From Alphaproteobacteria bacterium (lineage in GTDB: Bacteria; Pseudomonadota; Alphaproteobacteria; Rhodobacterales; Rhodobacteraceae), in the NCBI GenBank assembly GCA_030425145.1, contig JAUHVK010000006.1, forward strand, positions 1-64,000: DNA of 64,000 bases, in the 5' to 3' direction. Of the stretch, positions 23,317 through 40,322 are shown piece after piece. How positions within the stretch are numbered: the stretch's first letter is position 1; each line of letters opens with the position of its first letter. The translations under genes and the position numbers were made by a program. Below the pieces are notes generated by a model that saw only the letters and a list, made by a program, of their open reading frames with translations, made no database searches and had not been told where the DNA came from.

Positions 23317-23322
23317 ACCGCC

Positions 23323-23419: not shown

Positions 23420-24286
23420 ATGGCGAAACCTTTTTCAGTCAAGGACAGATTGCAAGATCAGGCCGGGGCTCTGACCCCCGCCGAACGGCAATTGTCGAGC
23501 GTCCTGTTGCGCGATTATCCGGTGGGCGGGCTGCAATCCATCACCCGCATTGCGGAGGCTGCGGGCGTGTCGACGCCGACGGTGATCCGGCTGGCGCGTA
23601 AGCTGGGCTTTGACGGATTCCCGGAGTTGCAGGCGGCGATGCGCGAGGAGGCGTCGGAGCAGTTCAAGACGCCCATTCGCAAGCGCGAGGGCTGGGGCGA
23701 CACAAAGCCTGGATCAGCCGCGTTCACGGCCTTTGCCGAGGCGGTTTTCGACAATCTGAGCCGCACTATCGACCGGCTGGAGCCGGGTACTCTGGACGCC
23801 ATCGCAGGGGTTCTGGCAGATCGCCAGCGGCCGGTATATCTGTCGGGTGGCCGGATCACACGGTCGAATGCAGATTACTTTTACAACCACCTTCAGATCA
23901 TCCGCCCGGCGGTGACATTGCTGGGTGCGTCACCGAATGTCTGGCCGCAATACATTCTGGACATGGATCGCGCGTCTGTTCTGATCCTGTTCGACATTCG
24001 GCGCTATGAGCGGGACCTGGAACGCCTCGCAGAGTTGGCGAAAGAGCGGGGGGCGGAGATCATTCTATTCACCGACCAATGGGGGTCACCGATCTCGCGT
24101 CTCGCGGATCACGTGGTGAATGCAATGATCGAAGTGCCGTCGAGCTGGGATTCGACCCTGGCGATCAACCTGATCATCGAAGCTTTGATTGCCGAGGTTC
24201 AAACCCGCGTGTCCGAGAGTGCGCGGGAGCGGATCGAGGCGCTGGAGGATATGTTCCAGTCGACCCGAATTTTCCGCAAACCTTAA
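23420..24286 (+). CDS. RpiR/MurR-family regulator
   Basis: This 288-aa protein has an N-terminal helix-turn-helix of the RpiR type (residues 10-85, with A-A-G-V-S-T-P-T-V-I-R-L-A-R-K-L-G-F) and a SIS domain from about residue 125 to 260 (V-Y-L-S-G-G-R-I-T). SIS domains in such regulators bind phosphosugars or other small effectors. It is divergent from the seven-gene operon starting at 23316, the arrangement expected for its regulator. Its stop overlaps that of the convergent DMT permease gene by four bases. Confidence 0.87.
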   Translation: MAKPFSVKDRLQDQAGALTPAERQLSSVLLRDYPVGGLQSITRIAEAAGVSTPTVIRLARKLGFDGFPELQAAMREEASEQFKTPIRKREGWGDTKPGSAAFTAFAEAVFDNLSRTIDRLEPGTLDAIAGVLADRQRPVYLSGGRITRSNADYFYNHLQIIRPAVTLLGASPNVWPQYILDMDRASVLILFDIRRYERDLERLAELAKERGAEIILFTDQWGSPISRLADHVVNAMIEVPSSWDSTLAINLIIEALIAEVQTRVSESARERIEALEDMFQSTRIFRKP

Positions 24287-25110
24287 CTGAGCGCGAGGAT
24301 CATCACGCCAAGGGCAACCACAAAAGCGGCGATCAGGCGGCGGTTGGCGGGGCCTTCCCTAAGCCAGATGACCCCGATCAGTGCGGCAAAGATCACCGAG
24401 GTTTCGCGCACCGCCGATACGATACCGATGGGCGCGAGGGTTTTGGCGAAGAGTGCGAGCCCGTAGGCCACGCCAGAAATCACGCCTCCAGCCAGTCCAA
24501 GAGCAAGGGATCGCTGGCCGATCTTGCGCACCCGTTCGAAACGGGTGGCGATGACGAATGCGGCCACGCAAATCTCGGCGGCAAAGAGCCAGACGACATA
24601 GCCGATGGGCGTGCCCGACACCCGGATGCCCATGCCGTCGACGACGGAATAGGCCGCAATCACAGCCGAGGTGGCAAGCGCTGCCGCGATCCCGCGTTTG
24701 TCGGCGTGCCGAATGGCGGCAAGCACCATGATCCCGGCGGACACTGTCAAAATTCCGATCCATGCCCAGAGCGACAGGGACTCGTCTGCCCAGACCATCG
24801 CACCTAAGGCGACCATCACCGGGGCGGTACCGCGCGCGATCGGGTAGATCAGGGACAAGTCGCCAAAGCGGTAAGCGATATTGAGGCCGTAGTAGTATGC
24901 CCAATGGATCACCGTCGAGGCGATGATGAAGGGAAACGCCTCGGCTGCGGGGATAGGGAAAAAAGGCATTAGGGCAAAAGCGGGCAGGCAATGGCCCGTC
25001 GCCACCAGCCCAAGCGTGACCGCGCGGTCGCCCGAGGTTTTGACCAGCGCGTTCCAGAGCGCATGGAGCAGCGCCGCCAACAGGACGATGAGGAGGACGG
25101 TTGTGCTCAC
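24283..25110 (-). CDS. EamA/DMT-superfamily permease
   Basis: This 275-aa integral membrane protein has about ten transmembrane helices in two repeats of the EamA type. The GTG start overlaps the stop of the preceding PLP-enzyme gene (GTGA), so it is the last gene of the phosphonate operon. DMT transporters of this kind export or import amino acids and small metabolites. Movement of AEP, of a related phosphonate, or of a degradation product is possible, but nothing in the sequence fixes substrate or direction. Confidence 0.75.
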   Translation of the reverse strand: MSTTVLLIVLLAALLHALWNALVKTSGDRAVTLGLVATGHCLPAFALMPFFPIPAAEAFPFIIASTVIHWAYYYGLNIAYRFGDLSLIYPIARGTAPVMVALGAMVWADESLSLWAWIGILTVSAGIMVLAAIRHADKRGIAAALATSAVIAAYSVVDGMGIRVSGTPIGYVVWLFAAEICVAAFVIATRFERVRKIGQRSLALGLAGGVISGVAYGLALFAKTLAPIGIVSAVRETSVIFAALIGVIWLREGPANRRLIAAFVVALGVMILALS

Positions 25111-26450
25111 CCGGCGGCCCGGATCGTGTCGATGACGATGCTGAGGGCTGTATCGAGATCAGCTTGGCTGATCACCAGCGGGGGTGAAAGTGTCAGAACA
25201 CTGCCAGCGCTGATTTTGAAGCTGAGGCCTTTGTCGAGGCAAGCATAATAGATGCGCTCGGCGCGGTCGGGATCGGGGGTGCGGCTATCGCGGTCGGTGA
25301 CGATCTCGATCCCGAACATGAGACCACGCCCTCGGATGTCGCCGACATGCGGGTGATTGTGCAGCGCTTCCTTCAGGCGGTTCTGTGAGTGGGAGCCCAA
25401 AGCGGCGGAGCGGTCGACCAGACCTTCGTCCTCGATGATGTCGAGGGTGGTCAGCGCAGCGCGGGCGGTGACGGGATTTTTCTCATGCGTGTAGTGGCCG
25501 ATAGCGAAGTCGCCAGCGACGTTCAGATCGTCACGCGCAACGATCCCGGCGATAGGGAGCATACCGCCACCAAGCGCCTTGCCGAGAACCACGATGTCGG
25601 GTTCGATCCCGTCGTGGTCGAAGGCGAACATGCGGCCTGTCTTGCCAAGACCCGTCGGGATTTCATCCATGATGAGCAGCGCGCCGTGTTTGCGGCACGC
25701 GGCCTGCACGGCCTGCCAGTAGCCGGGTGGGGGGACGACCGGAACGGCGCGCATGGGCTCGGCGATCACGGCGGCCACATCGCCTTCGCGGGCAAGCGCG
25801 TATTCGACCATGTTGGCGCAGGCCAGTGCGCAGGTTTGGGGGCCGGGGTGGCCATAGGCGCAGTGATAGCAGTGGAAGGGCGCGACGTGCTCGGCACCTG
25901 GCAGAAGCGGGCCCGCGATGTGGCTGCGGAAGGTGGCTTCACCCCCGACGCTGGATGCGCCAAAGCCTGCACCGTGGAAGGCGTCCCAGAAGCTGATTGT
26001 CTTGAAGCGGCCTGTGGCGGCGCGGGCAAGGCGCAGGGCCACTTCGACCGCGTCTGATCCGCCGGTGGTGAAAAGAACGCGGTTTAGGGTGCCGGGTGCA
26101 ATCTGGCCCAGGCGTTCAGCGAGCTTGACCGAGACATCATTCGTGAATCGCCGTGGCGAGAACGGCAACGCGTCGATCTGGCCTTTCACCGCCTTCACAA
26201 GACGCGGGTGACCGTAGCCGATGTGGTGGACGGAGTTGCCGTGGAAATCCATGAACCGGCGGCCGCTGGTGTCCTCGATCCAGATGCCTTCTGCCTTGGC
26301 GATGGTGCTCAGGCAAGGCGAGGATAGGGATTGATGCAGGAACGCATTTGCATCCCGTGCAAGCAAATCGCGGGTTTCGTTGTGTGTTTCCCGCGACGCC
26401 CATTCGGCACGCGCGGCACTGGTGTTGGCTTCGCCTTCGGTGTGTCGCAT
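25107..26450 (-). CDS. class III aminotransferase-fold enzyme, PbfA-like
   Basis: This 447-aa PLP fold-type I protein of the class III aminotransferase family has L-I-M-D-E-I-P-T-G-L-G near the middle and the PLP lysine in V-L-G-K-A-L-G-G-G-M. In AEP operons with phnW, phnY and phnA this family member is usually PbfA, a lyase that removes ammonia from (R)-1-hydroxy-2-aminoethylphosphonate to give phosphonoacetaldehyde. That name is inferred from context. The ATG at 26450 overlaps the phosphodiesterase stop by one base (TGATG) and was preferred over a longer frame that would run through that gene. An AEP:pyruvate-type transaminase is an alternative. Confidence 0.72.
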   Translation of the reverse strand: MRHTEGEANTSAARAEWASRETHNETRDLLARDANAFLHQSLSSPCLSTIAKAEGIWIEDTSGRRFMDFHGNSVHHIGYGHPRLVKAVKGQIDALPFSPRRFTNDVSVKLAERLGQIAPGTLNRVLFTTGGSDAVEVALRLARAATGRFKTISFWDAFHGAGFGASSVGGEATFRSHIAGPLLPGAEHVAPFHCYHCAYGHPGPQTCALACANMVEYALAREGDVAAVIAEPMRAVPVVPPPGYWQAVQAACRKHGALLIMDEIPTGLGKTGRMFAFDHDGIEPDIVVLGKALGGGMLPIAGIVARDDLNVAGDFAIGHYTHEKNPVTARAALTTLDIIEDEGLVDRSAALGSHSQNRLKEALHNHPHVGDIRGRGLMFGIEIVTDRDSRTPDPDRAERIYYACLDKGLSFKISAGSVLTLSPPLVISQADLDTALSIVIDTIRAAG

Positions 26451-27235
26451 CAGGCGGGATCCTCGATATCTGTCATCTGAACCACAATCCGGTCCGGGCC
26501 GACCAGGATCACCGCATATTGTGGGCGTTCCTCGAGCGCGACGAAATTGGACCAGTCCCATGTCTGGTGGGGCGGGCGGGTCTGATGTGCGATGGAGCGG
26601 AGCGCGGTAAACGGAACGCGGCCGATCACTCCAGAGATCGGCCGATGAACGTGGCCGACAAACAGGTGTTCGACCTGAGGGGCGGCAGAAAGAAGATCAA
26701 CAACGGGTTGGTGGTCCAGCAAGGGCATGTCGTCGAGCAATCCAAGGCCCAGAGGGCCGGGCGGGTGGTGTGTAAAGACGAGGACACGCCTGTCGTGGGT
26801 TTGATCCAGTTCGGATGCGAGCCAGTCAAGACGTTCGGTATCCATCTGCCCCGCATCGCTGCCTGGCAGATGCGTGTCGAGACAGAGCAGGGTCACATCC
26901 CCGTCAATGTCATGGCGGTATTGATAGTATCCGTCAGGCCCGGTTCCGGGCCGAGGGAGCGCGGCCATCATGTTCGCGCGATTGTCGTGATTGCCGATCA
27001 TTGGAAGGAACGGTACGCGCAAGTCGGCCAACCGCTGGTTCAGCGCGGAATATTCCTCGGGCGTGCCGGTGTCGCACAAGTCGCCGGATGCCACACAACA
27101 GTGCGCATCGAGATGGTGTCTGTTCACCTGCTCGATCATCTGTCGCAGCCGCGCGCGGCTGTTCACGCCTTCGACCTGCCCAGAGACCGTCTGGTGCAGG
27201 TCGGAGATCCAGACGATCTTGTGGGTGAAGGCCAT
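26450..27235 (-). CDS. GpdQ/CpdA-like metallophosphodiesterase
   Basis: This 261-aa binuclear metallophosphoesterase has all the metal-binding signatures in order: S-D-L-H at residues 11-14, G-D-L-C-D around residue 50, G-N-H-D-N near residue 83, T-H-H-P-P and G-H-V-H-R. It is soluble, with no signal peptide. Relatives hydrolyse cyclic nucleotides or glycerophosphodiesters. Because it sits inside an AEP-degradation operon, between phnY and the PbfA-like gene, a role in releasing phosphonates from diesters is suggested. The ATG at 27235 (M-A-F-T-H-K-I-V-W) is preferred; the frame is open further but overlaps phnY. Confidence 0.8.
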   Translation of the reverse strand: MAFTHKIVWISDLHQTVSGQVEGVNSRARLRQMIEQVNRHHLDAHCCVASGDLCDTGTPEEYSALNQRLADLRVPFLPMIGNHDNRANMMAALPRPGTGPDGYYQYRHDIDGDVTLLCLDTHLPGSDAGQMDTERLDWLASELDQTHDRRVLVFTHHPPGPLGLGLLDDMPLLDHQPVVDLLSAAPQVEHLFVGHVHRPISGVIGRVPFTALRSIAHQTRPPHQTWDWSNFVALEERPQYAVILVGPDRIVVQMTDIEDPA

Positions 27236-27240
27236 AGGCG

Positions 27241-28680
27241 TCAGGGCCAGGGCAGGCTGTAGGTCTTGACGTTGGTGAAGAACTTCATCGCTTCGATGAC
27301 GCCTTCCTTCACTCCATTGCCGCTGTCCTTGATGCCGCCGAAGGGGGACATCTCGATCCGGTAGCCCGGCTGTTCCCAGATGTTGCACGTGCCGACGTTG
27401 AGCCCGTTGATAAAGGCAATCGCGCGGTTCAGGTCGTTGGTGCAGACGCCGGAGGAGAGGCCGAAATCGGTGCTGTTGGAGATACGCATCACCTCTTCGT
27501 CGTTGTCGGGCACGCGGACGATGGGAATGATCGGTCCGAAGGTTTCCTCCATCACCAGTTCGCTGTCATGCGGTACATGATCGACCACGATTGGCGGGAG
27601 CAGGGCGCCTTTGCGGCCCGGATCGTAGAGCACTTTCGCGCCTTGGTCTGCGGCCATGTAGACCCGCTTTTCAAAGAGTTCGGCGGCCTGCGCGTGGATC
27701 ACGCAGCCAAGCTCGGTGGCCGGATCCTGGGGATCGCCGAATTTGATCTTCTTGGCTTTCTCGACCACCAGCGGCACGAATTTGTCAGCAACGCTTTCCT
27801 GCACAAGAATGCGCTTTATCGCGGTGCAACGCTGGCCGGAGTTGCCGGTGGCACCTGCAACGGCAATGGTCGCCGCCTTGTCGAGATCGGCATCGCTCAG
27901 GTCGTTGCAGACGATCAGGGGATCGTTGCCGCCGAGTTCCAGCGCGGTGCGTTTGTAACCGGCCTTGGAGGCGATGAGTTTGCCGACGGGGACACCGCCG
28001 GTGAAGGTGATGATGTCGATGTTTTCGTTGGTCACCATCTCGTCGCCGATATCCGCGGGCATACCGGTTACGACCTGGAACATCTCGGGCGGCAGGCCGG
28101 CTTCGTAGAGGATGTCGGCCAGCGTTAGCGCGGTCAGCGGGGTCAGTTCTGTCGGTTTGCACACCATGCAGTTGTTGGTGGCAATCGACGGCGCGATCTT
28201 GTGGCTGACCATGTTCAGAGGGTGGTTGAACGGGGTGATCGCGCTGATGGCGCGGACGGGTTCGCGCATGGTGAAGATCTTGCGCGCCTTGCCGTTGTGA
28301 GTGAGGTCGCACGAGAAAATCTCGCCATCATCCTTGAGCGCCTCGGCAGCGGCGAATTGGTAGACATCCTGCGCGCGCTTGGTCTCGTAGATGCTATGCT
28401 GGTGGCAGATGCCCAATTCCAGCGTCAACCATTTGGCAAGGTAATCGCGGCGTTCACCAATCAGTTCCCCGGTGCGTTGCAGGATTTGGCTGCGTTCGTA
28501 ACGGGTGAGCTTGGGTTTGTAGTTCGCGGCAATCTCGAACGCGCGGCGGGCATGTTCGGCGGTCCCCATGGGGACGGTGCCGATCACCTCGTCGGTGTAG
28601 GGATAGCGGACTTCGAGCCGCGCCTCGGTGTCGACCTTTTCACCACCGATGCGCATCTGTTCGTGACGGATTTCGGTCAT
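27241..28680 (-). CDS. phnY: phosphonoacetaldehyde dehydrogenase PhnY
   Basis: This 479-aa ALDH-superfamily enzyme has the oxyanion region I-T-P-F-N-H-P, the glutamate in L-E-L-G-G-N-D and the catalytic cysteine in N-S-G-Q-R-C-T-A. In the pathway with PhnW and PhnA it oxidises phosphonoacetaldehyde to phosphonoacetate. The ATG overlaps the phnA stop by four bases. Sequence alone would only give aldehyde dehydrogenase; the PhnY name rests on the flanking phosphonoacetate hydrolase and AEP transaminase. Confidence 0.87.
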
Positions 28681-29936
28681 GCGGGCACCTCTTCCAGCGC
28701 GGCGGCGGTGGTTGCGTAGAAGAACGCATCGAAATTGCGAAGCGTCGGCGCGTCGGGCAGGTCGATCACACGGTTCACGATGAACGGCACTTCCTGTTCG
28801 GTCAGCCCGCCATGGCTGCGCAGCGGCTCCTTGAGCGCGGCGAGGTCATGACGGTGGGCGCTGGTGCCGATGGTCATGTTCTCGGTCGAGATCATCACGA
28901 TGTCGCCGATGCGATCGGCGGGGAGTTCGTATTTCTGGACAGCGGTGGCCTTGTCCACAACTTCGAGCATTTCCGGAAGCCCTCGCAGGCGGGCGATGAT
29001 GTCGGCCTGATCTGCGCCCGAAGGCAGGTAAGCCGTGGCGAACGACCCGAGCGCGCCGTGGTGCACGACATACGGGTCGGTGATCGGCAGGATCACGCGC
29101 GCGGCTGCCTCGCCCAACCATTCGTCGAGCAGATCCTGAACGTAGATCACCGCCGGGTCGCCGTTGGCGTCATGCTTGGGCTTCATGCCGTGGTCGGCGG
29201 TTACGACGATGGCGGCGCCCATGGCATCAAGCTCTGTCAGGTAACGGTCGAACATCGCGTAGAAGTCTTTGGCACCCTGTTCATCAGGGGCGAACTTGTG
29301 CTGGATGTAGTCGGTGGTGGACAGGTACATCACGTCCGGTTTCCACTCTTTCAGCAGTTTCACACCTGCGGCGAAGACGAATTCCGACAGGTCGGCGGAA
29401 TAGACCTCGGGCACCGGCATGCCGAGCCAGTCCGACGCCTTGTCGATGCCGTGTTCCGCTTTGGTCGTGTCGCCGGATCGCTCGGACGAAAACGCGATGG
29501 CGCGGTCTTCGTCGAATTTCAGACCCGCGCCCAGCAGCGCGCGCAGCTTGTCCTTGGCGGTGACAACGGCGACCCGCGCGCCAGCCTCGTAGAACTTGGA
29601 GAACACGGTGGGCGCGCGCAGGAAGCGAACGTCGTTCATCATGACTTCCTGACCGGTTTCCGGTTCATAAAGGAAGTTGCCGCAGATGCCGTGCACCGCA
29701 GGAGGACGACCCGTCGCAATGCTCATGTTGTTGGGGTTGGTGAAGGAGGGGATGACCGAATGGGCCAGACGGTCTGTCCCGGTTTCGCGGATGCGCTTTA
29801 GCGTGGGCATCAGCCCTTCGGCGATGGCGACCTCAAGATATTCGGGTTCGCAGCCATCCAGACAGATTGCAATCGCGCAGGTCTTGGGCGCGGGGTAAGT
29901 GCGGTCGTTGGCGACCACGGGATTGTTAATCGGCAT
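28677..29936 (-). CDS. phnA: phosphonoacetate hydrolase PhnA
   Basis: This 419-aa member of the alkaline phosphatase superfamily cleaves the C-P bond of phosphonoacetate to acetate and phosphate. The first metal aspartate is in C-L-D-G-C-E-P, the nucleophilic threonine in P-S-F-T-N-P-N-N, and further metal ligands are in T-A-D-H-G-M and the C-terminal G-T-S-A-H-R-H. These are the hallmarks of phosphonoacetate hydrolase rather than a generic nucleotide pyrophosphatase. It follows phnW after ten bases and precedes phnY with a four-base overlap. Confidence 0.92.
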
Positions 29937-29946
29937 ATCTCTTCCT

Positions 29947-31128
29947 TCAGGCGGCGAGTTTCTTGCGTTCTTCCAAAGCGGCGGCCGGCGGGGCCGCGCT
30001 GCTCACGTTCATGTCGGTCAGGGCGTCGCGGGCGGCGTCCACCACGCGGCGCATCACGTGTTCGTCCATCTGCCCGATCACCCCGATGCGGAAACTGTCC
30101 ACCACGGTCAGCTTGCCGGGATAGATGATGAACCCACGTGCTTTCATGGCGTCATAAAAGCCCTGAAAGGTAAAGTTCGGATCGACAGGGCAGAAGAAGG
30201 TCACGATGATCGGGCTGAGCCAGCGGTCTGCGAGCAAAGTTTCGAAGCCAAGTTCGCGCATGCCCTGCACTACCACGTCGCGGTTGCGCGTGTAGCGCGC
30301 ACCACGGGCGGGCACGCCGCCTTCGGCTTCATGCAGGTCGAGCGCTTTGAGGAACGCCGCGACGACGTGCGTCGGGGGCGTAAAGCGCCACTGGCCGGTT
30401 TTCTCCATCGTCGCCCATTGTGCATGTACGTCGAGCGACAGGGAATGGGAGTTGCCTTTCGACGCCTCGATCTCGTCCTTGCGGGCGATGACAAAGCCGA
30501 AACCTGGGACACCTTCGATACATTTGTTGGCCGAGGACACAAATGCGGTGCAGTTGAGTTTGACCGGGTCGAGCGGCAGAGCACCGAAGGCGGACATGCT
30601 GTCGATCAGGAGCTTGCGCCCTGCGGCTTTGGTTGCCTCGGCAATCTCTTCGACCGGGTTTTGAATGCCGCTGGAGGTTTCGCAATGTATCGCCAGCACA
30701 TGGGTGATGGCAGGATCATTGGCGAGGATGGCTGCAACTTCGTCGCCGCGGGGGGGCAGGTAATCGCCTTTGTCGAGCAGATGGTAGTCGCGTCCGAGGT
30801 AACCAAGGGTTTGAGCTGCGCGGAGCCCATAGGCGCCATTGGCGAGCACCAAGACCTTACCATCGCGGGGTACAAAGCTGCCGAGCATCGCTTCGACGCA
30901 ATAACTGCCGGACCCTTGGATCGGCACGCAGTCATAGTCGGGCGCGCCATCGCCGATTAGGGCCAGAAGACGCGATCGGAGTGCGCGGGTCATGGCGCGG
31001 AAATCGTCGTCCCAACTGCCCCAATCCTTAAGCATCGCCTGTTTGACGGAATAGGCCGTGGTTAGCGGGCCGGGAGTGAGCAGATAGGGTTCCCCTAGTT
31101 CCGGGGCAGGCAGCGGTGTGGCAGACAT
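29947..31128 (-). CDS. phnW: 2-aminoethylphosphonate:pyruvate transaminase PhnW
   Basis: This 393-aa fold-type I PLP enzyme of class V transfers the amino group of AEP to pyruvate, giving phosphonoacetaldehyde and alanine. It starts with the family pattern [10 protein letters not shown], has S-S-G-I-Q-N-P in the middle, and the PLP lysine in S-S-A-N-K-C-I-E. The ATG at 31128 is chosen because it has a GGGA ribosome site and the usual N-terminus; an upstream ATG at 31179 is possible. It is the first gene of the operon phnW-phnA-phnY-phosphodiesterase-pbfA-like-permease. Its C-terminal tail is a little longer than usual. Confidence 0.92.
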
Positions 31129-31248
31129 GGCGCGTTCCCAAAGCTGGTGTGGCATTGGATATGCGGTGCACGTAGGCATATGTAAAATCTTTGTTCTCTA
31201 TTGATTGATAGTTTATGGTTATGAGTATCCGGACGGTTTGGAGTTCTT

Positions 31249-32124
31249 ATGCGGTATAGCCAATTGCGCGCGTTTCATCACGTTGCCCTGCACGGCGGGT
31301 TTTCCCGTGCTGCGCGCGCCTTGAACATCTCGCAACCGTCCGTGTCGGATCAGGTGCGCCAGCTTGAGCAGCGGCACGATGTTCTTTTGTTTACGCGCGA
31401 GGCGCGTCAGGTGCGGATGACGGAAGCCGGCGAAGCGTTGTTCCGCCTGACCAGCGAGATGTTCGAAGTTGAGGAGCGGATTGGTGCACTGTTTGATGAG
31501 AACCGTACGGCGTTGTCCGGGCACCTTAGGATCATGGCGGATTCCGCAATGCATATCACGGACGCGGTGCGCCGCTTCCGAGAAGCCAGCCCGGATGTTT
31601 TCGTCACCATCCGTACCGGCAATACTGAAGACCTGCTGAGGCGTTTGCGCAATTATGAGGCTGAAATCGGGGTGGTTGGCAATTCGGTGTCTGCTCCGGA
31701 TCTCGAAAGCATCGATCTTGGGCGCACGCCCATTCTGGCCTTGGTGGCCAAGGGGTATCTGCCGCAAGGGACGCGGAAACTGCGGTTTCGCGATCTGGGG
31801 CGATACCCTCTGATTTACCGCGAAGTCGGGTCACGGACCCGGGCGCAGGTTGAAGAAGAGGCGGATCGGCTGAAACTGGGCCTGACTGCGTCGATTGAGG
31901 TAGAGGGGCGTGAGGCGATGCGTGAAGTGGTGGCGTCGGGCGCAGGGATAGGATTCATCAGCGAGGCCGAATTCGGGCATGATCGACGGCTCAAGGCGAT
32001 CCCGTTTGAGGATGTGGATATCGGGATGTCTGAATCGCTGGTCACGTTGTCAGCGCGTCGGGATGTTCCGTTGATCCGAGGCTTTGTCAAAGCGGTGCAG
32101 AAGTCATTGGTGTCTGGGGCTTGA
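31249..32124 (+). CDS. LysR-family regulator of the AEP operon
   Basis: This 291-aa protein has a canonical LysR winged helix (M-R-Y-S-Q-L-R-A-F-H-H-V, then N-I-S-Q-P-S-V-S-D-Q-V) and a periplasmic-binding-like effector domain from about residue 90. It is divergent from phnW with a 120-bp gap, the arrangement of LysR activators that control AEP degradation genes in other proteobacteria. The expected effector is AEP or phosphonoacetaldehyde. The phosphonate monoester hydrolase gene follows on the same strand and may also be in its regulon. Confidence 0.87.
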   Translation: MRYSQLRAFHHVALHGGFSRAARALNISQPSVSDQVRQLEQRHDVLLFTREARQVRMTEAGEALFRLTSEMFEVEERIGALFDENRTALSGHLRIMADSAMHITDAVRRFREASPDVFVTIRTGNTEDLLRRLRNYEAEIGVVGNSVSAPDLESIDLGRTPILALVAKGYLPQGTRKLRFRDLGRYPLIYREVGSRTRAQVEEEADRLKLGLTASIEVEGREAMREVVASGAGIGFISEAEFGHDRRLKAIPFEDVDIGMSESLVTLSARRDVPLIRGFVKAVQKSLVSGA

Positions 32125-32223: not shown

Positions 32224-33723
32224 GTGTCAGTACCAAAGCCGAATACACTGTTTATCGTCATCGATCAGTTGCGCGCGGATTGCGTGTTTGGCGCGCTGGA
32301 ATCGCATCTTGATCTGCCAAATATTCGGGCATTTGCTGCTGATGCGGTGACTTTCAGGAACCATTATTCTGTCACATCCCCCTGTGGCCCGTCCCGGGTG
32401 TCGTTGCTGACGGCGCAATATACCTCGAACCACGGCGCCAAGCGCAATGGCACGCCGCTCAAGCGGGACACACCCAACCTAGCAACGGTTGCACGAGAGC
32501 ATGGTTTTGACCCGTTGCTCTTCGGGTATACCGACACGTCGCACGACCCGCGGTTTCTGTCGCCGGACGATCCGCGGCTGTTTTCATACGAAGAGCTGGC
32601 CCCCGGTTTCGATGAAGTTGTGAGGATGCGTCTGGAAGGCGATTCCAGCGCGTGGGAAAATCATCTGCGGGAACATGGATATGAAGTGCCGCCTTATCCC
32701 GAGATGTATCGGCCGGTTGGGGATACGCCGGATTCACCCGCCCTCTACGCTGCCAAGCACAGTGACACGGCCTATCTGACTGATCGGGTGATTGAGGATC
32801 TTGGGAAGCGGCCGCAGGGGTGGTTCGGGTTGGTCACGTATATCCGACCGCATCCGCCATTCGTAGCGCCTGCGCCGTACAACGAGATGTACGACGCGGC
32901 AGACATGCCTTCGGCGGCCAAGCTGAACGACCCCGATTGGCACCCGTACTTGGCGACCGCACGTCGCAAGAGCAACGTGGCGTCGACTGTGGTTGGGTTT
33001 CCTGAACTTGAGAACTCAGACGAGACGACTCGGATTATCCGCAAGCTCTATTTCGGGCTGGCGACCGAGGTGGACCATCACGTGGGACGTCTGATCGACT
33101 GGCTTAAGGAAACGGGGCAGTATGACAACACGCTGATTGTCCTGACTGCCGATCATGGTGAAATGCTGGGCGACTACGGGTTGTGGGGGAAGATGACCTT
33201 CCACGATGCCGCGTTCCATGTGCCGCTGATCATCCGCGAACCGCACGCCGCGCATCGTGGAATCACCGTAAATGCGCCGACCGAGTCCATTGATGTCACC
33301 CCGTCTCTGCTGGATTGCCTTGGTCTGGACGTGCCGCACTCTATGGATGGGCGCAGCCTGAAACCGTTCCTGGATGGCGTCACGCCAAGCCATTGGCGCG
33401 AGTTCTCGGTTTCCGAGCTTGATTTTGGTGACCCGATAACGCCGACGCTTTGGCAGACCGATCACGGATTGTCCGTGGATACGGCGAATCTTGCTGTCCT
33501 GCGCCGTGGTTCAATGCGATTCGTTCAATTTGCCGGAGGCCTGCCGCCGATCCTTATGGATGTCTCAGATGGCATTGAGGGGCGAAATTTGGCGAAAAAT
33601 TCCGCACATATGCAGACAATGCTTGATTTGATGCAGGATATGCTTTGCCATCGGATGGTTAACACCGACGGAACGTTTTCGAGAACACTGGTCACCGATG
33701 ATGGTGTGAAAGTGGCCTCATGA
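32224..33723 (+). CDS. phosphonate monoester hydrolase / arylsulfatase-family enzyme
   Basis: This enzyme of about 499 aa belongs to the alkaline-phosphatase/sulfatase superfamily. With the GTG start at 32224, the formylglycine site is Cys54 in S-P-C-G-P-S-R, the first metal aspartate is Asp14 in I-V-I-D-Q-L-R-A-D, and T-A-D-H-G-E-M-L-G-D supplies further ligands. The pattern and the absence of a signal peptide fit the phosphonate monoester hydrolase (PMH/PehA) group, which hydrolyses phosphonate and phosphate monoesters and diesters, and sulfate esters weakly. A TTG at 32200 is an alternative start. The phosphonate neighbourhood supports a PMH over a true sulfatase. Confidence 0.8.
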   Translation: MSVPKPNTLFIVIDQLRADCVFGALESHLDLPNIRAFAADAVTFRNHYSVTSPCGPSRVSLLTAQYTSNHGAKRNGTPLKRDTPNLATVAREHGFDPLLFGYTDTSHDPRFLSPDDPRLFSYEELAPGFDEVVRMRLEGDSSAWENHLREHGYEVPPYPEMYRPVGDTPDSPALYAAKHSDTAYLTDRVIEDLGKRPQGWFGLVTYIRPHPPFVAPAPYNEMYDAADMPSAAKLNDPDWHPYLATARRKSNVASTVVGFPELENSDETTRIIRKLYFGLATEVDHHVGRLIDWLKETGQYDNTLIVLTADHGEMLGDYGLWGKMTFHDAAFHVPLIIREPHAAHRGITVNAPTESIDVTPSLLDCLGLDVPHSMDGRSLKPFLDGVTPSHWREFSVSELDFGDPITPTLWQTDHGLSVDTANLAVLRRGSMRFVQFAGGLPPILMDVSDGIEGRNLAKNSAHMQTMLDLMQDMLCHRMVNTDGTFSRTLVTDDGVKVAS

Positions 33724-33740
33724 ATTCCGAGGAACTGGCC

Positions 33741-33758
33741 CTGTCATGCATCTGTCAT
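33741..33758 (+). promoter_or_regulatory. PhoB box upstream of the ABC importer
   Basis: Two perfect CTGTCAT half-sites (33741-33747 and 33752-33758) are separated by GCAT. This is exactly the 11-bp periodic direct repeat recognised by PhoB in alphaproteobacteria. It lies 18 bases after the hydrolase stop and about 205 bases before the binding-protein gene, so phosphate limitation should induce the importer operon. The leader downstream contains a small GGGGG-AACAG-CCCCC hairpin at 33921-33935. Confidence 0.8.
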
Positions 33759-33964: not shown

Positions 33965-36004
33965 ATGAAACGACTTCTACTTTCAGGCGTGGCCGTGATT
34001 GCCCTGCCGGCAGCCGCATATGCGAACTGCCCGGCAGTCACAGTCGCCGACATGCAAGGCGTCGCCGCCGGTGAATTCCCTCAGCAGTATGAATTGAGCG
34101 CCTTTCAAGAGGCTGCCGGCTGCTCCATGGAGTTCTCGGCAAACCCGGAAATCGAAGCGCTGAACGCGCAGATCAAGGGCAACCCCGATCTGCCGCCGCT
34201 GGCAGACCGTCTTCCTTCGGAACCGCTTGTCGTCGTGCCATATGACAGCGTCGGTCAATATGGCGGTGAGCTGAACGTTCTGTCCAACGCGACAGAAGCG
34301 GGCACGTCCGACTTCCTGTCGGTGCGGCACGTCAACCTCGTGCGCTATTCCGACGATCTTCAGACCATCGTTCCGAACATCGCGAAATCGTGGACATGGA
34401 ATGACGACTACACACAGCTGACATTCAAGCTGCGCGAAGGGCACAAGTGGTCCGATGGCGCACCGTTCACCAGCGCTGATGTGGCGTTCTGGCATGACAA
34501 CCTCATGCTCGATACGAATATCTTTGAGCAGCCGAAAGACTACGTCACGGTTGGCGGCGAAAAGATGACGGTTGAAACCCCTGATGCGACAACGGTGATC
34601 TTTAACCTGCCCGCACCGAAGCCGGGTCTGCTGTCCCACTTCGCGACCTCTTATGCACAAGGCTTCCAGCCCAAGCATTTCCTTGGCCAGTTCCATCCGT
34701 CGATCAACGCGGACGCAGACAGCTATGCGCAGTCGCTGGGCTTTGAGAATGGCTATGACGCGATCATGGCTTATTACGGCAACTCGGACTGGACCGACAC
34801 ACCGACACCGATGCTGTCGCGTGGCGAAATCGTCGATGGGCTGCCGAAAGCAACCGTTCCGACGCTGGAATCGCACATCTACATCACCGACACGACCGAA
34901 GGTCGGAAACTGGTGGCAAACCCCTACTTCCATCAGGTCGACACAACCGGTCAGCAGCTTCCTTACATCTCGACCCAGGACGAGCTGTACATCAACGACA
35001 ACGAGGTGCGCATCCTCAAGCTGGTGAACGGCGAGGTGGATTACAAATCGCAATCCGTCCGTCTTGAATCGGCGCCGCTGCTTCTGGAAAACCAAGAGAA
35101 GGGCAACTATTCGATCCAGTTGAAGCCGACAGTTGGTATGCCAGCATTCAGCTTCAACCTGACGTCCGAGGATGAATCCAAGCGCGCGCTGTTCAACGAT
35201 ATTCGTTTCCGTGAAGCGATGTCGGTGGCCATCAACCGCGACGAGCTGAACGAAATCGCGTATTTCGGGCAGGGCACGCCCAGCCAGATCGCACCGTTCA
35301 ACCCGGCACCTGATTTCGTTGACCCGAGCTGGGAAAGCTACAAGGCCGGATTCGATCCGGACACCGCAAAGGCGCTGCTGGATGAAATCGGCATGGTCGA
35401 TACAGACGGCGACGGTTTCCGCGAATTGCCGAATGGCGACAAGATCACGCTGAACATGCAGTTCTCGACCCAAGGCATCGCCGGTGCGGTTGTGGAACTT
35501 GTTGGTCAGAACTGGGCGGATGTCGGTGTTCAGACTCAGGTCAAAGAGGTGACGCCGGATGAATATCGCTCTGCGCAGTCTGCCAACAACCTTGATGTCG
35601 GTCTGTGGCAGTACGGTGCGCCGCTGGCGATTCACCTTGGTCTCAACAGCTTCTTCCGTCCGCCGTTCGGCACCTACTTCGAGCACCGCACAGGGATGCT
35701 CTGGGCGGAATGGCTCGATACCAATGGCGCGTCGGGCGTAGAACCGCCGGAATGGGCCAAGAAACTGGCAACAGACATCGACGCGTTCCAGTCGGCAGTT
35801 CCGGGCACGGACGAGTCCAACGAGCTGGGTGCCGGTCTTGTAGAGAACTTCGTGAGCAACCTTGTGATGATCGGCACGGTGAAAGCACCTGAACCGATCT
35901 ATGCAAGCAACAACCTCAAGAACTTCACCGAGTTCAAGACGTGGTCATATGAGTACTACCGGACCTACCCCTATCGCGCGACGCAGTGGTGGTTGGACGA
36001 GTAA
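33965..36004 (+). CDS. ABC transporter substrate-binding protein (family 5)
   Basis: This 679-aa periplasmic binding protein of the oligopeptide/nickel family 5 has a Sec signal peptide (M-K-R-L-L-L-S-G-V-A-V-I-A-L-P-A-A-A-Y-A, cleavage near residue 20). It is longer than typical DppA/OppA proteins of about 530 aa. An acidic D-T-D-G-D-G-F-R-E loop occurs around residue 480. The ATG at 33965 is preceded by AGGAGAG. It heads a five-gene importer operon preceded by a PhoB box, so its ligand is probably phosphorus-containing (for example a phosphonate or phosphate ester) rather than a peptide; that is inference from regulation and neighbours. Confidence 0.87.
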   Translation: MKRLLLSGVAVIALPAAAYANCPAVTVADMQGVAAGEFPQQYELSAFQEAAGCSMEFSANPEIEALNAQIKGNPDLPPLADRLPSEPLVVVPYDSVGQYGGELNVLSNATEAGTSDFLSVRHVNLVRYSDDLQTIVPNIAKSWTWNDDYTQLTFKLREGHKWSDGAPFTSADVAFWHDNLMLDTNIFEQPKDYVTVGGEKMTVETPDATTVIFNLPAPKPGLLSHFATSYAQGFQPKHFLGQFHPSINADADSYAQSLGFENGYDAIMAYYGNSDWTDTPTPMLSRGEIVDGLPKATVPTLESHIYITDTTEGRKLVANPYFHQVDTTGQQLPYISTQDELYINDNEVRILKLVNGEVDYKSQSVRLESAPLLLENQEKGNYSIQLKPTVGMPAFSFNLTSEDESKRALFNDIRFREAMSVAINRDELNEIAYFGQGTPSQIAPFNPAPDFVDPSWESYKAGFDPDTAKALLDEIGMVDTDGDGFRELPNGDKITLNMQFSTQGIAGAVVELVGQNWADVGVQTQVKEVTPDEYRSAQSANNLDVGLWQYGAPLAIHLGLNSFFRPPFGTYFEHRTGMLWAEWLDTNGASGVEPPEWAKKLATDIDAFQSAVPGTDESNELGAGLVENFVSNLVMIGTVKAPEPIYASNNLKNFTEFKTWSYEYYRTYPYRATQWWLDE

Positions 36005-36018
36005 TCGATTATGATCTT

Positions 36019-36046
36019 GATGTGGGCGGCCCGCGCCGCCCACATC
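36019..36046 (+). other. very stable hairpin after the binding-protein gene
   Basis: A perfect 12-bp stem GATGTGGGCGGC / GCCGCCCACATC with a four-base loop begins 15 bases after the binding-protein stop and is followed by TTTCC. It probably blocks 3' decay and limits read-through into the permease genes, giving excess binding protein. Confidence 0.7.
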
Positions 36047-36123
36047 TTTCCTCAAGAAAGACGGCGGACTGACCGACACACCGGATCAACCGGGGGCGCA
36101 GACGCCATGCAGGGGCATGCTTC

Positions 36124-37128
36124 ATGTTGAATTTTGCGCGCTTCGTGGTGACACGTGCAGTGCTTGCAATGATCACGCTGATCATTGTGTCGCTGGTCGT
36201 GTTCTCGCTCATGGAGTTGGTGCCCGGCGATTGTGCCGAGCGATATCTCGCGTTCAAGAATACCCAAGGGTCGGGGATCTCCGCCGCAGATATTGAAAGC
36301 GAGCGTATCCGACTTGGTCTGGACCGGCCGTTTCTTGAGCGCTGGGGCAAATGGATCATCAATGCGTTTCAAGGCGAATTCGGTGACAGCTGTATCCTGC
36401 GCGTTGATATTGCGCAGCTGCTCGGAGACAAGTTCTGGATTTCGCTTGGGCTCTGCCTTGCGTCCCTGATGCTGGCCTATGCCATCGCGTTGCCTGTCGG
36501 GATCATCGCCGCGGCATCGGACAATGCGATCCTGAATAACTCGCTGCGCTTGTTCAGCTATCTGGGCCTTGCCATGCCGAACTTCCTACTGGCGCTGATG
36601 ATCATGCTGTTCTCGACGGTCTATTTCGGCGACACGCTGACGGGGCTGTTTTCCGCCCAATATCGGGATGCGCCATGGAGCGTGGACCGTGTGTTGGACT
36701 TGCTCAGCAATGCATGGCTACCGATCTTTATCCTTGGCTGGTCGGCGACCGCGTTTGCATTGCAAACGGTGCGGGCGTTGATGTCGGACGAGATCGGCAA
36801 GCTCTATGTGACCGCTGCGTCTGCACGTGGTGTGCATGGGCGCAAGCTGCTGTGGAATTACCCGGCGCGTCATGCTCTTGGCCCGATCGTCAACAGCCTT
36901 GGCTTTGACCTCAACCGTATCTTCAACGAGCTTCCCATCGTTGCACTCATCCTGACGCTCACCGAAGCCGGGTCGCTTTTGATCGAGGCACTGGCGCGGT
37001 CGAACGATCAGCAGTTGGCCGGAGCCATCATCTTCCTACTGACCGCGTCCATCGTGACGCTGAACTTCCTGACGGACGTGTTGCTGGCGGTGCTTGATCC
37101 GCGCGTTCGCAAGAGCATCGTGAGGTGA
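36124..37128 (+). CDS. ABC transporter permease (DppB/OppB type)
   Basis: This 334-aa inner-membrane protein has six predicted helices. The first helix and following loop match the DppB type (V-F-S-L-M-E-L-V-P-G-D). The cytoplasmic coupling (EAA-like) loop lies around A-A-S-A-R-G-V-H-G-R-K near residue 235. It pairs with the next gene to form the transmembrane pore. An AGGGG site precedes the ATG. Confidence 0.88.
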   Translation: MLNFARFVVTRAVLAMITLIIVSLVVFSLMELVPGDCAERYLAFKNTQGSGISAADIESERIRLGLDRPFLERWGKWIINAFQGEFGDSCILRVDIAQLLGDKFWISLGLCLASLMLAYAIALPVGIIAAASDNAILNNSLRLFSYLGLAMPNFLLALMIMLFSTVYFGDTLTGLFSAQYRDAPWSVDRVLDLLSNAWLPIFILGWSATAFALQTVRALMSDEIGKLYVTAASARGVHGRKLLWNYPARHALGPIVNSLGFDLNRIFNELPIVALILTLTEAGSLLIEALARSNDQQLAGAIIFLLTASIVTLNFLTDVLLAVLDPRVRKSIVR

Positions 37129-37132
37129 CGCC

Positions 37133-38332
37133 ATGACGACGACACCCGATCCCATGAAGCCGAATATGGCTGAGACCACTGGTCCGCATGTTCAGATTGT
37201 CGAAACCGAAGATGCGGTAGAGCGCCGCTCTAAAGAGGCGTATTTCACCGCCTCACAGGGCCAGTTGATCTGGGCGCGGTTCAAGAAGCAGCGCGCGGCT
37301 ATGATCGCCGCGAGCGTGCTGCTGTTCCTCGTTCTGTCGGGCATCTTTGCGCCCTTCCTGTCGCCCTACAATCCGACGATTGCGGGCAAGAACGACGAAT
37401 ACACCAATGGCGCGCCGCAGATCCCGATGTTCTGTGATGTGAATGGCTGTTCGATCCGCCCGTTCGTCCATGCGGTCGAACGCGAGCGTTCAATGGCCAC
37501 GAATTTCCGTTGGGTGACGAAGATCAACGAAGACGAGCGTCAATACATCCATTTCTTCGTGGAAGGATGGGAGTATAAACTGTTCGGTTTCATCCCGATG
37601 GACACGCATCTTTTCGGCGCACCGGACGGGTTTGTGCATGTCTTTGGAACCGATGACGCCGGCAAGGACATCTTTTCCCGCACGTTCCACGCCATCTGGA
37701 CCTCGCTTCAGGTCGGCACCATTGGTGTATTGATCGCCTTTGTGCTCGCCCTCGTGATCGGCGGGGTGTCGGGGTATTACGGAGGTTGGATCGACTCTGT
37801 CTTACAGATGATCACCGATGCTGTTCGAACGGTGCCCGCGATCCCGCTTTTCATGGCGGTGGCGGCGTTCATGCCGCCGGAATTGTCGGCTGAAGAACGG
37901 TTCTTCTACATATCGCTCATTCTCGGCCTGATCGGATGGCCAACTCTGGCGCGGCGGGTGCGGACACACCTGTTGACAGAGCGGAACCAGGAATACGTGC
38001 TGGCGGCACAGCTGTGCGGTGCGTCTTCCGGCCATGTGATCCGGCGTCACCTTCTGCCGAGTTTCACCAGCTACATCATCGTCGATCTGGTGATCTCGTT
38101 CCCTTACATGGTGCTGTCGGAAACTGCGCTGTCCTTCATCGGTCTTGGCCTCAAGGATCCGGTGAACAGCCTTGGCGTCATGCTTCAGAATGTGACCAGC
38201 GCCGACGTGCTTCTCAACTACCAATGGTACTTCATCCCGGTGATCTTTTTCATCGCACTGGTGATGGCGTTCGTGTTCGTCGGCGACGGCTTGCGCGACG
38301 CGGCAGACCCCTATTCGGATAATAACAAATGA
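37133..38332 (+). CDS. ABC transporter permease (DppC/OppC type) with extra periplasmic loop
   Basis: This 399-aa protein is longer than ordinary DppC proteins of about 300 aa. After the first helix (residues 55-80) there is a hydrophilic insert of roughly 90 residues, up to about residue 160, predicted periplasmic. The standard core with G-T-D-D-A-G-K-D-I-F-S-R and five more helices follows. The insert contains a cysteine pair, C-D-V-N-G-C. It begins five bases after the DppB-type gene and overlaps the next ATPase gene by four bases. Similar long loops occur in YejE-type permeases. Confidence 0.86.
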   Translation: MTTTPDPMKPNMAETTGPHVQIVETEDAVERRSKEAYFTASQGQLIWARFKKQRAAMIAASVLLFLVLSGIFAPFLSPYNPTIAGKNDEYTNGAPQIPMFCDVNGCSIRPFVHAVERERSMATNFRWVTKINEDERQYIHFFVEGWEYKLFGFIPMDTHLFGAPDGFVHVFGTDDAGKDIFSRTFHAIWTSLQVGTIGVLIAFVLALVIGGVSGYYGGWIDSVLQMITDAVRTVPAIPLFMAVAAFMPPELSAEERFFYISLILGLIGWPTLARRVRTHLLTERNQEYVLAAQLCGASSGHVIRRHLLPSFTSYIIVDLVISFPYMVLSETALSFIGLGLKDPVNSLGVMLQNVTSADVLLNYQWYFIPVIFFIALVMAFVFVGDGLRDAADPYSDNNK

Positions 38333-39324
38333 CGGCTCTGATCGACGTAAAGAACCTGACACTCAAGTTCCGCACCGATGAGGGGCTGATTACCGCTGTC
38401 GACAATGTCAGCTTCTCGCTCAACAAAGGCGAGGTGATGGGGCTTGTGGGGGAGTCCGGTTCGGGCAAGTCCGTGACGGCCAAGGCTCTGATGCACCTGA
38501 ACGCTAAGAATGCCGTCTATACGCCGGAAAGCAAGATCACCCTGCATACCGACAAGGGGCCGGTGGACGTGTTGTCCTTGCGCACGCCTCGCGAGTTGAA
38601 CATCGTGCGCGGCGGGGCGGTGTCGATGATTTTCCAAGAGCCGATGGCCAGCTTTGCGCCTGCGATCACAATCGGCAAACAGATGGTCGAGCAGCTTCAA
38701 CTGCATGGCGACTATACCTGGGACAAGGCCAAGCGCTGGTCGATTGAGATGCTGGATCGCGTTGGCATCTCGGATGCCGGCAAGCGGTTCGATCAATACG
38801 CGTTCGAACTGTCGGGCGGGATGCGCCAACGCGCCATGATCGCAATGGCGCTATCGACACAGCCGAAGCTGCTGATCGCAGATGAACCGACAACGGCCCT
38901 TGATGTGACCATTCAGGCGCAGGTGATCGACCTGATGAAAGACCTCGTGGCGGAATTCCACATGGGGATCGTTTTCATCACACATGACCTTGGCGTAGTG
39001 GCGCAGACCGCCGACAAGGTGAATGTGATGTATCTGGGGCGGATGATCGAGGAAGGGCCGGTGCGCGAAGTCATCCGCAATCCGAAACACCCCTACACCC
39101 AGGGTCTGTTGGCGGCGCTGCCGAAACTCGAAGACCTCAATGCTCCGCTGACCCCGGTTCCTGGCGACATTCCATCGCCGCTTGAACGGCCCTCAGGCTG
39201 TGTATTCCATACCCGCTGTTCCAAAGTTGTGGGTGACGTTTGCAAGAGCGTTGATCCTCAGGATCGCCGCATTGACGCGACCCACAAGGTGGCCTGCCAT
39301 ATCTACGACGAGGTGCCGGCATGA
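38329..39324 (+). CDS. ABC transporter ATP-binding protein (DppD type)
   Basis: This 331-aa ATPase has Walker A G-E-S-G-S-G-K-S near residue 45, signature L-S-G-G-M-R-Q-R near residue 162, Walker B L-L-I-A-D-E-P and the C-terminal oligopeptide-transporter extension with C-V-F-H-T-R-C. It energises import together with the next gene. ATGA overlaps occur at both ends of the gene. Confidence 0.93.
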
Positions 39325-40322
39325 GTGATGTTCTGATCCGTGCCAAAGGGCTGTCTGTCGGTTTCCCGATTGGTGGTGGGCTGTTCAATAAGCAAGTTCT
39401 CAAAGCGGTGGACAATGTATCCCTCGACATTGAAAAGGGGTCGTTCTTCGGGCTGGTCGGTGAAAGCGGGTCCGGCAAGACCACCTTGGGGCGCGCGCTG
39501 CTCAAGGCGGCGCCGATCACGGCTGGCGGAGCACATTACAGCGACGGAGAGGTCGACTACGATCTCGAGAAGATTTCGAAAGAGCAGCTCAAGGACTACC
39601 GCAAGCGGGCGCAATTGATCTTTCAGGATCCCTATGCCGCGCTCAGCCCGCGCATGACCGTGCGGGATATCATCGCTGAACCGCTCGAGGTGATGAAGCT
39701 GACGAAGAGTCGGCAGGAAACCGACGCCCGCGTGCGCGAGATCGCGGCGAAATGCCGGTTGAACCTCGAACACTTGCGGCGCTTTCCACACGCATTCTCG
39801 GGTGGCCAGCGCCAGCGCATTTCGATTGCCCGCGCGCTAGTGTCGGCGCCCAAATTCATCGTGGCAGACGAAAGCGTTGCTGCGCTCGACGTGTCCATTC
39901 AGGCAGACGTGCTGAACCTGCTCAAGCAGATTCAGTCGGACATGGGCCTGACCTTTCTGTTCATCAGCCATGACCTGTCGGTGGTGGCGCATACCTGCGA
40001 CCACGTTGCGGTCATGTATCTGGGTAGACTGGTGGAAACGGCACCGACGCGCAAACTCTTTGCGGCGCCGCGACACCCCTACACCAAGGCGCTCTTCTCG
40101 GCGATTCCGTCTCTGGACCCTGACGATCGCGGGGCTGCGCAAAAGCTGAAAGGCGAAATCCCGTCCCCGACAAATCAGCCGTCGGGATGCAAGTTCCACA
40201 CCCGTTGCCCGTTTGCGGTTGATCACTGCAAACAGGTGGAGCCGAAGCTGGAAACCGATGGGTCTGGGCATGATGTGGCTTGCCATCGCTGGAAAGAATT
40301 GATGGCACCAGAGGCGGCGTAA
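39321..40322 (+). CDS. ABC transporter ATP-binding protein (DppF type)
   Basis: This 333-aa ATPase partner has Walker A G-E-S-G-S-G-K-T near residue 50, signature F-S-G-G-Q-R-Q-R and a C-terminal C-K-F-H-T-R-C-P-F motif. The Walker B reads V-A-D-E-S-V-A-A-L-D, with serine where proline is usual; the catalytic glutamate is present, so activity is expected. Last gene of the importer operon; its stop directly abuts the convergent acyltransferase-like gene with no space for a separate terminator. Confidence 0.92.
   Translation: MSDVLIRAKGLSVGFPIGGGLFNKQVLKAVDNVSLDIEKGSFFGLVGESGSGKTTLGRALLKAAPITAGGAHYSDGEVDYDLEKISKEQLKDYRKRAQLIFQDPYAALSPRMTVRDIIAEPLEVMKLTKSRQETDARVREIAAKCRLNLEHLRRFPHAFSGGQRQRISIARALVSAPKFIVADESVAALDVSIQADVLNLLKQIQSDMGLTFLFISHDLSVVAHTCDHVAVMYLGRLVETAPTRKLFAAPRHPYTKALFSAIPSLDPDDRGAAQKLKGEIPSPTNQPSGCKFHTRCPFAVDHCKQVEPKLETDGSGHDVACHRWKELMAPEAA

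Follow-up and report, generated by a model that had tools for sequence, protein, structure and literature searches.

What does a family-5 ATP-binding cassette (ABC) importer carry when it lies among genes for the breakdown of phosphonates? The question is raised by a gene island at 24283-40322 of a 64,000-nucleotide stretch of DNA from a marine member of the Rhodobacteraceae (assembly GCA_030425145.1, contig JAUHVK010000006.1, positions 1 to 64,000; hereafter the window). The island joins genes for 2-aminoethylphosphonate (AEP) catabolism to a formylglycine-type phosphonate monoester hydrolase (PMH), a GpdQ-like metallophosphoesterase and the importer. Relatives often keep the importer and the PMH with one of two unrelated phosphonate-breaking pathways. 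We suggest that the importer takes up monoesters of AEP or hydroxy-AEP (HAEP), phosphoethanolamine diesters, or both, intact, and that the PMH cuts them inside the cell, a reading to which we give slightly better than even chances. A first-pass annotation of the window had proposed uptake of an esterified phosphonate. Its core stands insofar as AEP-breaking genes accompany importer and PMH, and are physically linked to them, in different genera, and the substrate range it assumed appears too narrow.

Co-occurrence was surveyed across the family in 198 genomes, each from a different genus. The binding protein of the importer matched in 54 genomes, of which 36 were kept as orthologs (at least 47% identity) and 18 dropped (30 to 34%). 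PMH matched in 50, of which 39 were kept (at least 275 bits) and 11 dropped (about 207 to 217 bits). PhnA is present in 28 genomes, PhnX in 15 and the carbon-phosphorus (C-P) lyase protein PhnJ in 87; PhnA and PhnX never share a genome (28 + 15 = 43 of 198). One or the other of these two C-P hydrolases is found in 29 of the 36 binding-protein genomes versus 14 of the 162 others (Fisher p 7e-18), and PMH in 30 versus 9 (p 1e-21). PhnJ, the control, shows no association across the same genomes (11/36 versus 76/162, p 0.09), and C-P lyase was rejected as the usual partner. The co-occurrence check proposed in the first-pass annotation thus ties the importer to PMH and to PhnA or PhnX, and leaves aside the GpdQ-like gene, which is sporadic.

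The same genes are also physically linked. Within 15 kb of the binding-protein gene, window included, PMH is found in 23 of the 36 genomes and PhnA or PhnX in 16, all 16 of which have PMH there too. Binding protein, permeases, ATPases, PhnW, PhnX and PMH lie on a single strand in three genomes (G020, G046, G053), and a fourth (G076) has PhnW, PhnX, PMH, binding protein, permeases and ATPases, likewise on a single strand. PMH is close to PhnX in two genomes without the importer (G138, G181). It also lies 3.5 to 3.6 kb from the C-P lyase gene phnJ in G008:C15 and G194:C89, with no importer ortholog there. PhnA and PhnX belong to separate enzyme families, so AEP breakdown has become associated with the importer-PMH pair in no fewer than two forms. 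That two different C-P hydrolases share one importer-PMH partner favours ester uptake, and the linkage is less well explained by chance neighbours or by a simple importer of free AEP.

An importer of free AEP, HAEP or another free aminophosphonate, with PMH handling internal side products, would fit the observation that the importer is the sole transporter in the island apart from an EamA protein. Until 2021, most bacteria with PhnWX or PhnWAY had no known AEP transporter (PMC8316502; this and the other papers cited are drawn on for the parts accessible to us). PMH would not be needed for free AEP, yet no gene outside the importer is a steadier companion. As a member of the large-cleft cluster C class, the binding protein differs from AepX and PhnS, which are pfam13343 proteins, and the genome encodes PhnCDE with a second PhnA-PhnY pair elsewhere. 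We regard free AEP as an improbable ligand. The second cluster, at G000:C27, holds a LysR gene, a PsrA-type iron alcohol dehydrogenase (TIGR03405 436, cut-off 424), a PhnD-type binding protein (above the TIGR01098 cut-off, below that of TIGR03431), PhnC, PhnE, PhnE and a sodium/phosphate (Na/Pi) transporter. Its PhnA and PhnY are 83 and 87% identical to the copies in the window. No PhnW was found in the 15-kb stretch G000:C27:30000-45000 (L137), and the genome is without a PhnJ match. From its gene content, the cluster might oxidise hydroxyethylphosphonate to phosphonoacetaldehyde. The absence of known AEP importers stated earlier thus applies to the island and not to the genome.

The gene identities, operon layout, Pho box, linkage and co-occurrence are all read from sequence. 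The island was confirmed at its annotated place and counts 13 genes, or 12 without the LysR gene (Table 1). The minus-strand operon (31179 to 24283) runs PhnW, PhnA, PhnY, metallophosphoesterase, PbfA, EamA. It is compact, with overlaps (some of 4 bases) or gaps of at most about 10 bases between genes; the ATG of PbfA at 26450 shares bases with the stop codon of the gene before it. The plus strand carries, in order, LysR, PMH, the PhoB box, the binding protein, two permeases and two ATPases. PhnW, PhnA and PhnY lie where the first-pass annotation had placed them, all above curated cut-offs (for PhnW also TIGR02326, 474 against 401) and in a single operon, as expected of the hydrolytic phnWAY pathway. 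The other genes it named are also present; PbfA, EamA, LysR and an adjacent ethanolamine-type operon had been passed over. After the importer (40323-45196) follow an SGNH-domain protein, an EpsH-like glycosyltransferase (524 bits, cut-off 800) and an unnamed 464-aa protein, where an exopolysaccharide region may start.

Table 1. Features of the island and of the adjoining ethanolamine-type operon, with window coordinates
Feature	Position	Strand	Basis
EamA/DUF6 membrane protein of phosphonate clusters	24283..25110	-	TIGR03340 (phn_DUF6) 152 bits, below cut-off 288
PbfA	25107..26450	-	NF049939 equivalog-domain 675 bits, cut-off 525; sits in AEP cluster
GpdQ-like class III metallophosphoesterase	26450..27235	-	Pfam PF00149; start ATG at 27235
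PhnY, phosphonoacetaldehyde dehydrogenase	27241..28680	-	TIGR03250 768, cut-off 636
PhnA, phosphonoacetate hydrolase	28677..29936	-	TIGR02335 504, cut-off 408
PhnW, 2-aminoethylphosphonate-pyruvate transaminase	29947..31179	-	NF010006 551 bits, cut-off 296; start uncertain
LysR-type regulator of AEP clusters, AepR-like	31249..32124	+	TIGR03339 270, below cut-off 341
PMH, phosphonate monoester hydrolase (formylglycine enzyme)	32224..33723	+	GTG start; 4upk match E 5e-168
PhoB box CTGTCATgcatCTGTCAT	33741..33758	+	two perfect CTGTCAT half-sites 11 bp apart; 14/14 consensus positions
Family-5 (cluster C) periplasmic binding protein	33965..36004	+	Pfam SBP_bac_5; signal peptide by eye
Importer permease 1	36124..37128	+	Pfam BPD_transp_1
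Importer permease 2	37133..38332	+	NCBIfam Opp4C-like, below cut-off
Importer ATPase 1	38329..39324	+	NCBIfam OppD-like, below cut-off
Importer ATPase 2	39321..40322	+	NCBIfam DppF-like, below cut-off
Fe-type alcohol dehydrogenase, probable gamma-glutamylethanolamide dehydrogenase	15592..16737	-	NCBIfam Fe-ADH below cut-off; order as Phaeobacter MED193_10056
Aldehyde dehydrogenase, probable gamma-glutamylacetaldehydeamide dehydrogenase	16742..18118	-	Pfam Aldedh; gene order
Glutamine-synthetase-like, probable ethanolamine gamma-glutamylase	18122..19477	-	TIGR00653 260 bits, cut-off 429; gene order; start uncertain, open reading frame open to 19762
TRAP binding protein, probable EtoX	19557..20594	-	Pfam DctP; gene order
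TRAP large permease, probable EtoW	20643..21968	-	TIGR00786 249, cut-off 268
TRAP small permease, probable EtoV	21968..22549	-	Pfam DctQ
N-formylglutamate amidohydrolase family, probable gamma-glutamylglycine amidohydrolase	22546..23316	-	Pfam FGase; gene order
RpiR-family regulator	23420..24286	+	NCBIfam MurR/RpiR models, below cut-off

The PMH carries the formylglycine motif CxPSR, as CGPSR, and its best solved relative, 4upk, is itself named 'phosphonate monoester hydrolase', in agreement with the first-pass annotation. Its active site has Tyr and Thr, like those of the PMHs 4upk and 2vqr; the sulfatase 4upi shows Lys and His at these positions, which we take to tell PMH from sulfatase. Choline sulfatase and RlPMH are described as having 9 of 11 active-site residues in common. 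The score against the PehA equivalog NF045661 stays below cut-off (390 bits, cut-off 900). To our knowledge, no physiological substrate of the PMH family is established. Inspection by eye found no signal peptide on the PMH; since the binding protein has one, binding is naturally expected to take place outside the cell and hydrolysis inside it. The metallophosphoesterase has the metal-site motifs DxH, GD, GNHD, H and GHxH of class III enzymes. Its best solved matches, 2dxl and 2zo9 ('Phosphohydrolase', which we take to be GpdQ), are weak (E ~1e-20), and the SpdA equivalog scores 162 against a cut-off of 400. The GpdQ-like label given earlier is tentative, based as it is on weak similarity. As a core part of the system the gene was dropped, being sporadic among the 198 genomes.

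The family-5 importer is present as annotated, with binding protein and subunits spanning 33965-40322. The binding protein combines an SBP_bac_5 domain with the cluster C fold (model with a predicted local distance difference test score, pLDDT, of 86.9) and is not of the PhnD/SBP_bac_6 type, matching only SBP_bac_5 in Pfam and only peptide/nickel-type models in NCBIfam. The nearest solved structures are 7ver/7veu and 5ipw, and AccA is among the fold matches. Uptake of peptides or phosphorus-free oligosaccharides, with the importer's place being historical, would agree with the solved relatives, which bind galacturonate, melibiose/raffinose or chito-oligosaccharides or are annotated as oligopeptide-binding. 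It would also agree with an MlrC-like protein (named after a peptidase family; 182 bits, cut-off 999) at 7 of the 120 loci described below. Against such a ligand stand the Pho box and the linkage and co-occurrence with phosphorus genes. In addition, the four ligand arginines of the pectin-binding protein SPH1118 are all replaced in an alignment judged by eye (Arg57, Arg438, Arg466 and Arg496 correspond to Leu118, Thr502, Pro531 and Asn561). We consider a phosphorus-free ligand very unlikely. A pectin-like ligand, suggested by the nearest fold, was rejected on these arginines; Trp594 of SPH1118 maps to the invariant Tyr662.

The PhoB box upstream of the binding-protein gene is perfect, as the first-pass annotation had claimed, when scored against what we take to be the consensus. 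A box of at least 12/14 positions is found within 350 bp upstream of the binding-protein gene at 26 of 113 loci (24 of 104 once repeated records are removed), compared with 0.9% of 2260 base shuffles. Such boxes lie upstream of PMH at 1 of 63 loci, of PhnW at 1 of 33, of PhnA at 1 of 23 and of the first permease at 0 of 106; overall they occur at most once for each of the eleven genes tested besides that of the binding protein. Since the PMH lies upstream of the box, the position of the box suits control of the importer genes and not of the PMH. Common Pho control of the PMH was rejected on this order in the window.

A wider sampling extends beyond the family. A contig scan gave at least 585 relatives, of which the best 80 were examined, so that the sample is biased to close relatives. 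Record labels among these 80 are Rhodobacterales, Hyphomicrobiales, Kiloniellales, Gammaproteobacteria and SAR324, with many metagenome bins; one locus labelled Acidobacteria (L151), 91% identical to the protein of the window, is probably a misbinned contig. Neighbourhoods were read with marker tblastn and conservation-scored open reading frames, and clustered without preset markers over 120 loci, 5 of them chosen for PMH or PhnA and not for the importer. A family in 18 loci was set aside as antisense shadows of an ATPase gene, judged from coordinates. Importer-subunit families recur at 102 to 106 loci each and PMH comes next with 66, followed by PhnY/aldehyde dehydrogenase (39), PhnW (34), LysR and PhnA (24 each), EamA (22), and PbfA, DeoR and the Na/Pi transporter (18 each). 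Inositol monophosphatase (IMPase) follows at 13 loci, ethanolamine glutamylase at 11, and the alcohol dehydrogenase of that operon and PhnX at 10 each. All other families occur at 7 or fewer, mostly unnamed, an EnvZ-like kinase and the MlrC-like protein having 7 each. Among 106 distinct importer loci, 57 have PMH, 34 any AEP gene, 11 the ethanolamine glutamylase, and 66 at least one of these. EamA is near the importer at 20 (window included), 18 of them with PMH too.

The ethanolamine link is also present in the window, where 15592-24286 looks like an ethanolamine operon by protein families and gene order. The glutamylase is found in 30 of the 36 importer genomes versus 87 of the 162 others (p 0.001). 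In 6 of the 30 genomes holding both, window included, no more than 16 kb separates it from the binding protein (uniform-placement estimate p 3e-7; 5/29 and p 6e-6 with the window excluded), counting only places on the same contig, with 11 of the 30 compared by script and 19 judged by eye as being on other contigs. Ten of the 11 distinct glutamylase loci are other than the window, and 7 of the 11 have no AEP gene in the stretch; in two of those (G093, G164), PhnA is ~12 kb off or on another contig. These neighbourhoods suggest a ligand class that may also cover phosphoethanolamine diesters, which are oxygen analogues of AEP monoesters. In one genome without an importer ortholog, PhnA and the glutamylase lie ~4 kb apart (G100:C4:5866-12333).

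These neighbours raise the question of whether importer and PMH scavenge only ordinary phosphodiesters, such as glycerophosphoethanolamine or a sugar phosphodiester, the AEP genes being adjacent through a shared low-phosphate life. PMH activity on phosphodiesters has been reported (PMC5649143), and the neighbours that importer and PMH repeatedly have include the ethanolamine-type operon, DeoR/GlpR-type regulators and an inositol-phosphatase-like enzyme. IMPase is near 12 of the 106 distinct loci, 11 of them with PMH. The 16 further genomes searched comprise those of 15 best-80 loci without local PMH, AEP or ethanolamine genes, plus L181; L179, L196 and L221 were left out as repeating family genomes, and PMH matches of 210 and 227 bits were dropped. 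PhnW is above cut-off in 10 of the 16, PMH (at least 275 bits) in 8 and either one in 15, and 5 have PMH but no PhnW above cut-off. The association with PhnA or PhnX, and its absence for PhnJ, speak against a phosphodiester-only system. So do the single-strand importer-PhnW-PhnX-PMH arrays and the genomes that lack the importer but have PMH near phnX or phnJ. We consider such a system unlikely, while giving it more weight than the other alternatives. Six loci (L110, L115, L116, L214, L218, L227) have a DeoR/GlpR-type regulator, a HisN/IMPase-like phosphatase and a Na/Pi transporter beside PMH and importer, with no AEP genes in the stretch and with EamA in all but L110. A Na/Pi transporter is near 15 of the 106 distinct importer loci, where such transporters may export surplus phosphate, as occurs during AEP growth (PMC8316502).

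Several points weigh against uptake of aminoethyl-type esters by importer and PMH. The PhnW route is not known to take methyl- or hydroxyethylphosphonate. It is these two phosphonates, attached to polysaccharide, that the accessible sources describe as marine phosphonate esters (PMC5649143, PMC9381506). Among solved binding proteins, the closest are one for oligogalacturonate and 5ipw, annotated as oligopeptide-binding, followed by alpha-galactoside-binding ones, so the ligand could be a sugar or a peptide. No box of at least 12/14 was found within 350 bp upstream of 87 of the 113 binding-protein genes, and 22 of the 77 loci of at least 17 kb had no PMH, AEP or ethanolamine genes near the importer. 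Beyond the window, the GpdQ-like gene reaches 60% identity in only 2 of the 198 genomes. PMH at the 275-bit cut is missing from 6 of the 36 importer genomes, and PhnA and PhnX from 7, 5 of which have PhnJ. The Fisher tests take no account of phylogeny and treat genera as independent, which is not fully the case, with cut-offs chosen after the tables were seen. Conservation of the importer without phosphonate genes, which the first-pass annotation had named as evidence against its proposal, is thus partly found, in these 7 genomes and in the 5 of 16 with PMH but no PhnW. Such genomes point to a wider substrate range, maybe including ordinary phosphodiesters.

With the range so widened, we still favour uptake of intact esters. 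A phosphate-starvation importer would carry an aminoethyl-type organophosphorus ester, intact, from periplasm to cytoplasm; candidates are a phosphonate monoester of AEP or HAEP and an analogous phosphoethanolamine diester, or both. The formylglycine PMH would hydrolyse the ester bond, in this species perhaps helped by the GpdQ-like enzyme. Freed AEP would pass through PhnW, PhnY and PhnA to acetate and phosphate, freed R-HAEP would reach phosphonoacetaldehyde via PbfA, and freed ethanolamine would enter the adjacent gamma-glutamyl pathway. The direction of transport, the cytoplasmic site of hydrolysis and the action of PMH on the imported molecule are what we infer. The alcohol half, glycerol or sugar, is a guess, as is the example ligand glyceryl-AEP. 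More tentatively, and with somewhat less than even confidence, we propose a dedicated PhoB-controlled importer for intact phosphonate esters in general (AEP/HAEP lipid head groups, glycan fragments) and phosphoethanolamine diesters, feeding PMH and, through it, several C-P-breaking routes. We know of no earlier uptake route for esterified phosphonates. Lipids and glycans contain phosphonates, often in ester form (PMC8316502, PMC9381506). If the proposal is correct, it would name a carrier and an enzyme for direct uptake of such esters by marine bacteria, the importers in the accessible sources being described for free phosphonates. By record labels, mostly of metagenome bins, among the best 80 of at least 585 relatives, the importer would occur in many marine Alphaproteobacteria and some Gammaproteobacteria. 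It would also give PMH a physiological role, connect ethanolamine with AEP, and provide marker genes for metagenomes.

Searches of one open-access library yielded no description of the composition of the island; subscription journals are largely uncovered by it, and figures are outside this comparison. The published phnWAY/phnWX clusters with pbfA (PMC8154272, PMC12366243) have PhnW, PhnA, PhnY, PbfA and a LysR gene in common with the island, which adds PMH, the metallophosphoesterase and the family-5 importer. The words 'phosphodiesterase' and 'metallophos' are absent from the available text of both papers, and 'sulfatase' from that of PMC12366243. Their figures show transporter genes unnamed in the text, so that a family-5 importer could be among them. 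AepXVW, AepSTU, AepP, PhnCDE and PhnSTUV (PMC8316502, PMC10574752) likewise place phosphonate import beside phosphonate-breaking genes. In the accessible parts, they are described for free AEP or phosphonates with no ester hydrolase partner, and AepX, AepS and PhnS are pfam13343 proteins, unlike the family-5 protein of the island. RlPMH (2vqr) and 4upk share with the island PMH the formylglycine motif and the PMH-type active-site residues; the island enzyme is in addition tied to AEP genes and an importer. The nearest published idea concerns a Sulfitobacter PMH homologue, discussed for the release of phosphonate esters from marine polysaccharides (PMC5649143), tied to C-P lyase strains and with no importer named in the accessible part. 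The ethanolamine operon of Phaeobacter sp. MED193 (PMC10132767) has the order RpiR, GGAH, EtoVWX, ETAGA, GAADDH, GETADH, matched at family level at 15592-24286, and differs in that the copy in the window adjoins the AEP/PMH/importer island. The nearest functional precedent for import followed by cleavage is AccA/AccF of Agrobacterium (PMC7356202), where the phosphodiester agrocinopine is imported via a periplasmic binding protein and cleaved inside. We do not claim membership in that system, which differs in its sugar-2-phosphate diesters, in a hydrolase that is by name of another kind, and in having, in the accessible part, no link to C-P cleavage.

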